Source of the DNA: Flavobacterium fragile
GTDB lineage: Bacteria; Bacteroidota; Bacteroidia; Flavobacteriales; Flavobacteriaceae
Length of the DNA stretch: 64,000 bases
Direction of reading: 5' to 3'
Assembly: GCF_023634865.1 (NCBI RefSeq)
Contig: NZ_JAMLJN010000004.1
Span: 62,001 to 126,000 of the forward strand
Part shown: positions 26,551-54,440 of the stretch, one piece after another
Position numbering within the stretch: the stretch's first letter is position 1
Layout of the letters: every line of letters starts with the position of its first letter
The notes under the pieces: generated by a model
The model's input: the letters and a program-made list of their open reading frames with translations, nothing else
The model's database searches: none
Told to the model about the DNA's origin: nothing
Translations under genes and position numbers: made by a program

Positions 26551-26650
26551 AAAATGGCAAGCGACCTACATCGCACCGCTACAACCACATACCTTTGCTG
26601 TGTTCCCACCCTGGAGGAGTCTGCAGGAGCTGGTCGTGTAGGACTTGCCG
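26551..26650 (-). ncRNA. ffs: Signal recognition particle RNA, small bacterial type
   Basis: About 100-base RNA. The two ends pair: GGCAAG (minus strand, from 26649 downward) with CTTGCC (ending at 26556), and CCTACA with TGTAGG further in. The conserved apical domain CCAGGGTGGGAACACAGCAAAGG has the GGAA tetraloop and the AGCA side of the symmetric loop that binds Ffh. A short T-run follows the stem and serves as terminator, and a two-element promoter precedes it. The RNA forms the signal recognition particle with Ffh for membrane-protein targeting. Confidence 0.93.
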
Positions 26651-26653
26651 GTG

Positions 26654-26683
26654 CAAATATACAACCTTTTTATATTTTTGCAA
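26654..26683 (-). promoter_or_regulatory. Promoter of the SRP RNA gene
   Basis: On the minus strand TTG (26681-26683), 19 bases, then TATATTTG (26654-26661): the cleanest match to the Bacteroidota TTG-N19-TAnnTTTG promoter in the window. The predicted start of transcription coincides with the 5' end of the SRP RNA stem near 26650. Confidence 0.8.
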
Positions 26684-52647: not shown

Positions 52648-52819
52648 TAAAAGATTGTATTAATACTAATATTGTGTTTGATTTTTTTATTATTTTTGAA
52701 AAAGACAAAATAGACATCTATCTGACATATACACCCAAAATTGGGTAGCTAAGTATGATTTTGTCAGACATATAAACAAGTTATAAGCAAGCCGTCGGCA
52801 ATACGTTAAAATAGAACAT

Positions 52820-53146
52820 ATGAATACAATAGACTACAATTCTATATCTGAAGCCATAACCGAATTATCAAAGATTGGACAAAAAGAAATTGTTACCAAG
52901 CTTGAAAATATTTTGGAGAATAATGAACTTGAAAAGCCAGAGTTTCATAACAGAAAGGACGATAAAACAACAAGTTATTACAGATTAAATTTAACAGAAG
53001 AAGATTTGGAAGTGATTACAGATCTTTTTTTAGATTTAGAAGTTGGAAGCTTAACTGAAGACGGAGAAGCTGGACACTCAACAGAAAGATATGTAGCGCT
53101 ATTAAATAATTGGTCAAATATTAGTGGAGAAACGGCCAGCTTATAA
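52820..53146 (+). CDS. Cassette gene 1: 108-residue protein of unknown function
   Basis: Acidic cytoplasmic protein without signal peptide or membrane helix; helical N-terminal half (ISEAITELSKIGQKEIVTKLENILENNE), then a part rich in Asp and Glu (LNLTEEDLEVITDLFLDLEVGSLTEDGEAGHST). I do not recognise the family. An immunity-like or small regulatory protein would fit, but there is no direct evidence. The ATG lies 40 bases inside unit 1. The stop codon TAA is part of the TTATAAC end of the unit, so the gene fills its cassette. It has the same orientation as the other two cassette genes. Confidence 0.7.
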   Translation: MNTIDYNSISEAITELSKIGQKEIVTKLENILENNELEKPEFHNRKDDKTTSYYRLNLTEEDLEVITDLFLDLEVGSLTEDGEAGHSTERYVALLNNWSNISGETASL

Positions 53147-53266
53147 CAGCGGTTTCGCGCAATTGTTGGTTTCTATTTTTACGTGTTCACGAAAAACGTT
53201 TATCTTTAACAGAAAATAATTCGTTCGCTGGCTTCACAACTGCCGCGAAGCCGCGGAACGTTATGT
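53139..53266 (+). repeat. attC-like site A, between units 1 and 2
   Basis: Left arm GCTTATAAC-AGCGG-T-TTCGCG-CA..GTTG (53139-53168), right arm CAAC-TG-C-CGCGAA-G-CCGC-GGAAC-GTTATGT (53237-53266). Pairs: GCGG/CCGC, TTCGCG/CGCGAA, GTTG/CAAC, with unpaired single bases (T53153, G53250) on one arm, as in folded attC sites. A variable middle of about 65 bases lies between. Expected exchange point: between G53260 and T53261. Confidence 0.72.
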
Positions 53267-53299
53267 GTAACCGTAATCTGCTTTTCAATAGAACCATTA

Positions 53300-53752
53300 A
53301 TGAATAAAACTTTATACATATTTATCATCGTCATTGCATTTTTGAGTTGTTCAAAGACAAACTCGATAGAAGATACATTTGTTACTGCCCAAAATGAGTA
53401 TTGGACATATTACAGTCAAGGTCAATCTGGATATATGTATTTTAAGTTTCATAAAAATGGAACTTACGATAAATATGAAAGAGACTTGGGTTTATTTAAT
53501 AATGATGGTGATTTGGTTAGTGGTAAACGCAATTGGTCAATTTCAAAAGATAGTATTTTTACTTGGGGAGCGCACAAATATGATTTAGTAAGTTGTAACG
53601 AAAAAGCGATTGTTATAATGTACTTTGAAAAAAATGGAATTCCAGGCTATATTTTCTTCATTAAAGAAAAAGTAGGTGAAAAAAGAAAAGGTGATTATTA
53701 TTACGAACAGAAGCGGTTAAAGAATGTGGAAAAATATAAAAGTGCTTGGTAA
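53300..53752 (+). CDS. Cassette gene 2: 150-residue lipoprotein of unknown function
   Basis: Signal peptide of a lipoprotein (FIIVIAFLSCSKTNS, Cys about residue 17). The mature part is about 130 residues, Tyr/Trp-rich, with a pattern GTYDKYERDLG, KRNWSISKDSIFTWGAHKYDLVS and NGIPGYIFFIKEK that suggests a lipocalin-like or META-like small beta-sheet protein. No family is assigned. The stop lies 8 bases before the end-repeat of the unit. Being exported and lipidated, it probably acts at the envelope; cassettes of other integrons often carry such secreted proteins. Confidence 0.75.
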   Translation: MNKTLYIFIIVIAFLSCSKTNSIEDTFVTAQNEYWTYYSQGQSGYMYFKFHKNGTYDKYERDLGLFNNDGDLVSGKRNWSISKDSIFTWGAHKYDLVSCNEKAIVIMYFEKNGIPGYIFFIKEKVGEKRKGDYYYEQKRLKNVEKYKSAW

Positions 53753-53760
53753 AAGTGTCA

Positions 53761-53901
53761 CGGCTACACATAACAGCCGTTTGGCAAGATTGGGGTTTTA
53801 GGCTTAATTTAAAGTTGGTCTTGTATTTGGAAATTTTGTGCTTAACCGAAAAATAAATCTTAATTTAGTCCCCAACCTCGCCAAGCGGCGGGACGTTAGC
53901 G
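53761..53901 (+). repeat. attC-like site B, between units 2 and 3
   Basis: Left arm ..TACACATAAC-A-GCCG-T-TTGGC-AAGA-TTGGGG (53765-53795), right arm CCCCAA-CCTC-GCCAA-G-CGGC-GGGAC-GTTAGCG (53870-53901). Pairs GCCG/CGGC, TTGGC/GCCAA and TTGGGG/CCCCAA give a strong imperfect hairpin with bulged bases at the same places as in site A. The ends TAACAGCsGTTT and AAGCsGCGGrACGTTA are shared with site A, while the middle (about 74 bases) is unrelated. Exchange point expected between G53895 and T53896. Confidence 0.75.
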
Positions 53902-53923
53902 ATAATGTTAAAAACCGAAATTC

Positions 53924-54325
53924 ATGAAAAATCTTTTAATAATAATTTTCACTTTGATTTCTTTTCTCTCATATGCGCAGGAAAGTTCGATACAAAATGA
54001 TTCAATTTCATTAGGAACTTGTAGAGAAGGAATTGAAAACGCAGAGTCTGACTTCAAAAAAAATATTTACAATTTATATTCTTATGGATTGTCTGTCGAA
54101 ATTATTAAAAAAGGCGAAGAAGATTTCAACGAATTTTACAGAGATTATATGTTTAAAAATTATTCGATTAATATTGAAAATAGAGGTTGTGTTATTTTAC
54201 CAAAGTCTAAATGTTATGCTGAAACTGCAAAAAAATTAATTTTTCAAAAGTTTGGAGAGGACATATTTGAGCGAACTAGAAAAGAAGCAAAAAAAGCATT
54301 TTTAAAAAATAAACACTATCGCTAA
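53924..54325 (+). CDS. Cassette gene 3: 133-residue secreted protein of unknown function
   Basis: Signal peptide ending FLSYAQ (about residue 18), then about 115 residues, Lys/Glu-rich and helical, with three or four Cys (GTCREGIENAESDFKKNIYN, NRGCVILPKSKCYAETAKKLI). No family is recognised. The stop TAA is within the CGCTAAC end repeat of the unit, as in gene 1. The ATG is 28 bases into the unit. Same strand as the other cassette genes. Confidence 0.72.
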   Translation: MKNLLIIIFTLISFLSYAQESSIQNDSISLGTCREGIENAESDFKKNIYNLYSYGLSVEIIKKGEEDFNEFYRDYMFKNYSINIENRGCVILPKSKCYAETAKKLIFQKFGEDIFERTRKEAKKAFLKNKHYR

Positions 54326-54349
54326 CAGCGGTTTACTTCAATGGCTACT
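54314..54349 (+). repeat. attC-like site C, left half only
   Basis: CACTATCGCTAAC-AGCGG-TTTACTTCAATGGC repeats the left arm of sites A and B (TAACAGCGGTTT), but no right arm ending GCGGrACGTTA follows. The next bases are A-rich, then a short palindrome CGGATT/AATCCG (54381-54395). The array seems to have lost its right end here. Confidence 0.6.
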
Positions 54350-54405
54350 TCCGTATTTTACTACAAAAAAACCGATAACGCGGATTTACAATCCGTGCTA
54401 ACAAA

Positions 54406-54440
54406 AAAAATCCCAAACTCAATTGAATTTGGGATTTTTG
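54406..54440 (-). terminator. Terminator of lpd
   Basis: AATCCCAAA (54409-54417) pairs with TTTGGGATT (54428-54436); the A run 54403-54410 gives the T tail on the minus strand. Confidence 0.85.

Follow-up and report, generated by a model that had tools for sequence, protein, structure and literature searches.

The window analyzed here is a stretch of 64,000 nucleotides of Flavobacterium fragile (C22:62001-126000 of a genome assembly of 2.69 Mb in 27 contigs). On its plus strand lies an array of three small gene cassettes of integron type, preceded by a putative primary attachment site (attI). The features of the array are summarized in Table 1, in which R1 denotes an attC model that is mostly sequence-based (9 base pairs). 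The genes are enclosed by inverted cassette ends with a complementarity of 88–93% (52780-52795/53132-53147, 53260-53274/53760-53774, and 53895-53909/54312-54326), and G+C-rich hairpins with bulged bases were found at 53148-53259 and 53775-53894. The marks by which attC sites are recognized are present, namely AAC...GTT ends and a paired inner stem in which some bases are unpaired or bulged. A Pfam scan of the three encoded proteins gave nothing above the cut-off, and a search of the plasmid collection with the protein of cassette 1 gave no relative at 1e-5. An earlier, sequence-only reading of this DNA had reported three plus-strand unknown genes between complementary ends, G+C-rich bulged hairpins between the units, and pairing of merely five of seven and four of seven core bases between neighboring units. 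Its coordinates and inverted ends were reproduced, and the core pairing was confirmed by hand on the sequence. The three cassettes stand as well, but attI had been missed, as had the truncation of the third attC at about 54370.

Table 1. Features of the cassette array (positions are those of the window; ORF, open reading frame; aa, amino acids)
Feature	Position	Strand	Remarks
attI-type primary site	52680..52783	+	crossover after G of G^TT at 52780
Cassette 1 (TT...G; gene plus attC)	52781..53260	+	paired ends GTTATAAGCAAGCCGT / ACGGCCAGCTTATAAC; position 11 A/C
Cassette 1 ORF, 108 aa	52820..53146	+	without known family
attC 1	53132..53266	+	R1 match 53140-53266, 94.1 bits; site belongs to R1 training set
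Cassette 2	53261..53895	+	paired ends GTTATGTGTAACCGT / ACGGCTACACATAAC
Cassette 2 ORF, 150 aa	53300..53752	+	start lipoprotein-like, by eye
attC 2	53760..53901	+	R1 match 53767-53901, 106 bits; site belongs to R1 training set
Cassette 3, attC incomplete on 3' side	53896..54372	+	paired ends GTTAGCGATAATGTT / AACACTATCGCTAAC
Cassette 3 ORF, 133 aa	53924..54325	+	weak DUF6705 similarity, below cut-off
Truncated attC 3	54312..54372	+	5' arm kept; 3' arm exchanged for unrelated repeat

The retained 5' arm of attC 3 resembles the attC type of L024:2363-2501, which belongs to an array on contig C23 of the same genome. The sequence after the break point is a AAACCGATAACGCGGATTT repeat, and the array is closed at 54365-54410 by a repeat (AAACCGATAACGCGGATTTACAATCCGTGC); a slightly altered form was located in L235 near 2423.

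The attI-type site of the window is identical at 96 of 104 positions (92%) to the stretch between the integrase stop and the first cassette in F. cucumis (L027:11045-11148), and at 91 of 105 positions to the site on contig C7 of its own genome. Across 13 aligned sites, attI extends over about 95–125 bp between the integrase stop and the first cassette and ends in CATATAaACaAG^TT; its 3' core CATATAAACAAGTT carries at most one change per site. As in a classical integron, it adjoins the first cassette. At the window, the homology sets in immediately past the integrase stop codon, and therefore no remnant of an integrase is present. With its copy of attI, the locus is therefore an enzyme-less platform and more than a cluster of attC sites.

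In a close relative, the cassette content at this place is different. At this position of genome G449, the flanks of which are about 84–90% identical, the same attI is followed by a single different cassette with its attC, and the two sequences part at G^TT (one comparison). This agrees with the joining of integron-type cassettes at G^TT that had been proposed from the sequence alone. The same proposal had named as evidence against cassettes that the units are always found together at one locus; instead, a single and different cassette is present in the closest relative whose assembly covers the locus. A motif search in six other fetched genomes of the genus (G476, G494, G450, G446, G448, and G440) found no attI at the locus. 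In G476, other sequence occupies the place together with a form of the repeat that closes the window array, and in G460 the contig stops 36 bp past the match to the flanking gene. Array DNA was matched in 156 of 249 genus genomes. Among the 149 non-own matches listed, 27 fell into attC 1, 121 into attC 2, and one into gene 2, i.e., 148 were inside attC. Near-copies of attC 2 in other genomes of the genus were up to 98% identical over the site alone and had no cargo in common with the window. Judging from these matches, the recombination sites are common across the genus and the cargo is not.

The genome was searched for an integron-type tyrosine recombinase, as the sequence-only reading had suggested. 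No protein of the genome scored above the cut-off of the IntI family (TIGR02249), and the top two matches were tyrosine recombinases on contigs C7 and C23; on the contig of the window, the only match among those listed was C22:33252-33455, outside the window. The two enzymes are 77% identical to each other, and the one on C23 is 99% identical to its counterpart in Flavobacterium sp. UBA6195. Both frames are open, with the usual motifs present as judged by eye, and each heads an attI and a cassette array on its own strand. The earlier description of an array without an integrase holds for the neighborhood of the array, where none is adjacent, but not for the genome. The window resembles a cluster of attC sites lacking an integrase (CALIN) in having two whole attC sites (at least two being required) and no integron integrase nearby, but it differs from a CALIN by its attI and by the non-IntI integrase elsewhere in the genome. 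Over about the first 112 residues, the two integrases (L021:3238-4278, minus strand, and L024:162-1196) are near-identical and beyond that divergent, as would result from an exchange of the N-terminal part. The gene orientation is reversed in several cassettes, including the first of the C23 array (L024:1311-1727, L024:3104-4332, and L021:1187-1444).

Both enzymes exceeded the cut-off of NF040815, an NCBIfam family of XerA type named 'site-specific tyrosine recombinase/integron integrase' (232 and 223 bits, cut-off 220), and remained below that of TIGR02249 (215 and 205 bits, cut-off 265). The best solved relatives by sequence were PDB 5hxy and 4a8e (XerA/archaeal Xer), followed by IntI4 (2a3v) in third place. 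A tree of 63 rows was calculated from every second fetched integrase with an ORF and from named and control rows; seven sequences were omitted (one over-long IntI ORF, one truncated integrase, and five very distant recombinases). The 21 IntI rows formed one clade (100/100), and all 40 flavobacterial rows fell outside. In 12 of 12 aligned enzymes, residues 197-227 and 236-245 of IntI1 had no counterpart. The place in the alignment and an excerpt of PMC9668308 suggest that the missing segment corresponds to the additional domain of IntI near patch III (Messier and Roy). Most of the 12 enzymes contain about 60 columns without IntI equivalent, by eye mainly N-terminal, and the extension comprises about 70 residues. 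By these comparisons of sequence, the recombinase is a XerA-like tyrosine recombinase and not an IntI. An AlphaFold model of the integrase, based on seven close sequences, was not used (mean predicted local distance difference test score 58.7, predicted template modeling score 0.31).

The structure of the cassette ends was studied in 30 scanned loci of related genomes. Units were defined by a 7-base R-box match and an attC hairpin on both sides, so that positions 8 onward played no part in the definition. A looser script for chaining units had been discarded, as its chains were nearly as long in shuffled DNA. The strict definition yielded 98 units, with at least one in 22 of the 30 loci, and none in shuffled copies; the unit structure is therefore not a product of chance. 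When one row was kept per identical start/end pair, 92 distinct units from 16 genomes remained. Start and end matched at position 8 in 89 of these, at position 9 in 82, and at position 10 in 57, and further out at positions 12, 13, and 14 in 78, 81, and 75 units, respectively; at positions 15 and 16 only 13 and four units matched. At position 11, the cassette start was A in 91 of the 92 units, and the complement of the end was G in 78 of those and C, with a one-base bulge, in 10. With A at the start and C at the end, the top strand is mismatched at this position and the bottom strand forms a G.T wobble. Wobbles elsewhere leaned weakly in the same direction (16 bottom, seven top). The genome of F. 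fragile itself contributed 29 measured units (five on C7, 21 on C23, and three in the window). These were picked by end complementarity, so their pairing is not independent evidence; position 11 was not used in picking, and 28 of the 29 showed start A and end-complement G.

The inner stem showed changes on both sides in nine of its 10 predicted pairs, somewhere among 150 rows of an alignment that was fitted to R1 and is hence biased towards the structure of R1. In 32 modeled circle junctions the bottom strand was more stable in all 32 cases (mean −29.25 versus −25.16 kcal/mol), and in the array context it was more stable in 25 of the 32 sites. Pairing beyond seven bases, which the sequence-only reading had regarded as unusual, turned out not to be so: according to an excerpt of PMC2727003 most canonical cassettes pair over 9–11 consecutive nucleotides, and the ends of catB8 in a measured class 1 array pair over 12. 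The suggested Bacteroidota cassette type is borne out insofar as the site type is widespread in Bacteroidota; its distinctive trait is the fixed position 11 together with pairing that runs to position 14, not length alone.

The sequence TATATTTG occurs in cassette direction within many Flavobacterium attC loops, e.g., L024:14208-14346 and L029:16042-16180. The element TANNTTTG, which we take to be a Bacteroidota promoter element, was found 18 times on the plus and four times on the minus strand of the attC loops of 70 non-redundant sites (4.6 in shuffled sequence); over all 150 sites the counts were 37 and 33 (8.4 in shuffled sequence), without strand preference. The loop motif may serve the following cassette as a promoter, which we offer as a lead only.

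Integrase, attI, and array co-occur in nearly fixed orientation in many genera. A contig scan delivered 10 named loci, all from Flavobacteriia. Six of them have a paired unit that starts roughly 90–125 bp past the integrase; of the other four, three are on contigs that end just past or inside the integrase and one has no unit. In a sample of the family with 149 genomes, about one per genus, R1 sites (E up to 0.01) were present in 127 and the recombinase (1e-60) in 95. The best homologue per genome was taken in order of E-value from 60 of the 94 non-own genomes matched, and the loci were fetched with about 9.5 kb on each side, less at contig ends. The 34 loci with attC matches contained 95 matches in total, 89 of which (31 loci) were located downstream of the integrase on the same strand. 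The remaining six (three loci) were upstream and divergent, and no other arrangement occurred. Divergent arrays in the style of classical integrons were seen in L143, L159, and L175. Contigs ended within 2 kb downstream in 19 of the 60 loci and upstream in three, as expected where repeats break assemblies.

Throughout the phylum, R1 sites (1e-6) were detected in 116 of 296 genomes. Twenty-four genomes, 21 of them R1-positive and from outside the genus, plus G449, G460, and G203, were picked for a recombinase check, and 18 gave a match at 1e-40. Nine genomes outside the order of F. fragile (three of the same class, six sharing only the phylum) have attC no more than 12 kb downstream of the recombinase on the same strand, and G338 has a divergent site 1.7 kb from it. 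The nearest listed attC was 35 kb downstream of the recombinase in G328 and 73 kb upstream in G259, and in G161, G275, G334, and G432 none of the listed sites was on its contig. In the genus member G203, a single contig, the recombinase (146599-147633, minus strand) heads a same-strand run of attC sites that reaches back to about 107.7 kb. Two genomes, G154 and G164, have both IntI and the XerA-like enzyme, on different contigs. Two further observations concern individual arrays. In the same-genus genome G127 (L117), a broken integrase with two TGA and one TAA codons heads an array with nine attC matches. In L151 (11882-16634), two cassettes, GTTGTGCACAATAAGA and GTTAGGTAGCATTTGA units, are each present twice in tandem, likely by recent duplication.

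Pfam analysis of ten cassette proteins identified SUKH, an outer-membrane barrel, GmrSD_N, a HEPN protein, DUF6624, and a lincosamide nucleotidyltransferase, and left four without a family. The protein encoded by the first, attI-proximal cassette of C7 (L021:2222-2989, minus strand) shares 97.7% identity with Lnu(I) of a Riemerella anatipestifer plasmid and 74% with Lnu(H) of an Empedobacter plasmid. The R1 model matched five sites in the stretch from Riemerella and four in that from Empedobacter; an R1 scan of the class 1 array gave no sites. Complete paired units surround lnu(I) and tet(X) on the R. anatipestifer plasmid (L253 3856-8168) and catB, an aminoglycoside phosphotransferase gene, and lnu(H) on the Empedobacter stercoris plasmid (L254 693-4722). 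The gene blaOXA lies between two R1 sites, yet no paired unit was found around it, and estT follows the last site. Three other pairs from the scan of the resistance plasmids, one in L253 and two in L254, were judged to be due to chance, as they were inside genes or attC or lacked the position 11 pattern. An excerpt of a report on Riemerella describes a dfrA49-catB structure only as situated in variable regions and as a new genetic structure (PMC10100655).

Taken as a whole, the sequences make it very probable that the window holds an integron-type platform, consisting of attI and three cassettes without an integrase of its own, that belongs to a Bacteroidota-wide system with a XerA-like, non-IntI recombinase. 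By position, orientation, and spread, this recombinase is the best candidate for the enzyme that moves the cassettes. It would fold a single strand of the attC of a circular cassette, most probably the bottom one, and join it to attI or to another attC at G^TT. The platform of the window would be served in trans by the enzyme of C7 or C23. The A facing C at position 11 may help in the choice of the strand. The lack of the IntI domain may be made good by the additional N-terminal domain, which would then contact the longer outer stem.

Several observations weigh against this interpretation. Recombination at these sites is deduced from the sequence. The flavobacterial enzymes are not established as one clade, and row L160 joins IntI at weak support (83/86). 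The integrase frame appears interrupted in two of the six array-heading loci (L030 with only a 237-aa ORF, L032 without a matching ORF of 180 aa). No attC match was found in 26 of the 60 integrase loci, where the downstream sequence was shorter than 2 kb in 16 and about 9.5 kb in seven; some homologues may have another function. Five of the 21 R1-positive genomes from outside the genus (G270, G411, G266, G280, and G437) gave no recombinase match at 1e-40, and the sites therefore also stand alone. G449 keeps the platform and yet has no recombinase match at 1e-40, and the last attC of the window is truncated. The control with canonical arrays (twelve IntI loci) gave only two units and is unfit as a yardstick, so that the outer-stem comparison with canonical arrays relies on the excerpt of PMC2727003 and two class 1 cassettes.

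Some of these points would also fit a dead relic, i.e., an old and inactive cassette island kept as ordinary genes: the platform of the window has no adjacent integrase and a truncated last attC, the integrase of G127 is a pseudogene, and none was found in G449. Against this stand the two open integrase frames elsewhere in the genome, the intact attI, the variation of cassette content between close relatives, and the attC copies without shared cargo in other genomes of the genus, and we regard a relic as unlikely.

It is very improbable that the cassettes are ordinary ones moved in trans by a canonical IntI encoded elsewhere, with the XerA-like enzyme beside the arrays by chance or otherwise employed. 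The attC anatomy is classical, IntI scored above its cut-off in 84 of the 296 phylum genomes, and R1-type sites occur at one or more IntI loci (four matches in L200, one weak match in L198). However, the genome of F. fragile has no IntI above the cut-off, and the 86 phylum genomes with a TIGR02249 match at 1e-50 include no member of its family or order. By hand count, such a match was found in 24 of the 116 R1-positive genomes compared with 86 of all 296, and R1 sites therefore do not follow IntI. In addition, 31 of the 34 loci with matches have the XerA-like gene at the head of the array in one and the same orientation, and the nine genomes outside the order show the same linkage. That the hairpins are repeats resembling repetitive extragenic palindromes or miniature inverted-repeat transposable elements, or terminators, and the intervening genes never were mobile units, is hardly credible. 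The repetition of the hairpins, their richness in G+C, and their intergenic position would fit, as would the further repeat that closes the array, but elements of this kind do not explain why the outer ends of a gene pair with each other outside the common core, why attI is shared with an integrase locus, or why relatives part at G^TT.

The proposed XerA-served system shares with the classical integron (IntI, attI, and attC; class 1, Vibrio superintegron) an attI followed by small cassettes that are joined at G^TT, and attC sites with AAC/GTT ends, an imperfect hairpin, and a better folding bottom strand. In both, the cassettes at the same attI differ between relatives, which is seen here in the one comparison with G449 and in match edges at the R box in genus genomes. 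It differs in the recombinase, which is outside the IntI clade, lacks the additional domain, and has an extra N-terminal domain, in the position of the cassettes, which are usually downstream of the integrase on the same strand and divergent in only three of the 34 loci, and in the 14-position outer stem with a fixed wobble at position 11. The common direction of integrase and cassettes is reminiscent of the reverse-orientation integrons of spirochaetes (Treponema), whose integrases are generally found in this orientation according to an excerpt of PMC9668308; there, however, the enzyme is an IntI by the same account. XerA and archaeal Xer (NF040815, PDB 5hxy, and 4a8e) are the best family and the best solved relatives by sequence, but the enzymes described here are linked to cassette arrays and carry the N-terminal extension. 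No description of this system was found in the part of the open literature that was searched; subscription papers and preprints were outside the search, and prior publication is possible.

Apart from the array, a single match of the Rfam gathering scan, a Bacteroidales small signal recognition particle RNA at 26551-26657 (minus strand) of the window, was recorded; it is unrelated to the cassettes.

Integrons are a main route for the acquisition of resistance genes by bacteria, and IntI is regarded as the enzyme that defines them. We consider it fairly likely that Bacteroidota have an integron class of their own, in which a XerA-like integrase reads folded cassette sites without the IntI domain and chooses the strand partly via the A.C mismatch or G.T wobble in a 14-position stem. 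This class would be present in most of the sampled genera of the flavobacterial family, would have been a source of the lnu, tet(X), and catB genes clustered on the Riemerella and Empedobacter plasmids, and would have been missed by searches keyed to IntI. The excerpt of the IntegronFinder 2.0 report lists one complete integron in Bacteroidetes proper, that of Salinibacter ruber, besides Chlorobi and Ignavibacteriae (PMC9024848), and the R1-type sites in 127 of 149 genomes of the family bear on this apparent scarcity. Bacteroidota are counted among the integron-bearing phyla in excerpts of PMC8618304 and PMC9668308, and canonical integrons do occur in the wider phylum, as the genomes with IntI above the cut-off indicate. 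Units of this type also hold the lnu(I), lnu(H), catB, and tet(X) genes found on two plasmids from animal-associated Weeksellaceae. If the interpretation is true, a second enzyme does the same job as IntI, which would separate the general features of attC from those adapted to IntI, and would permit a direct test of strand choice.

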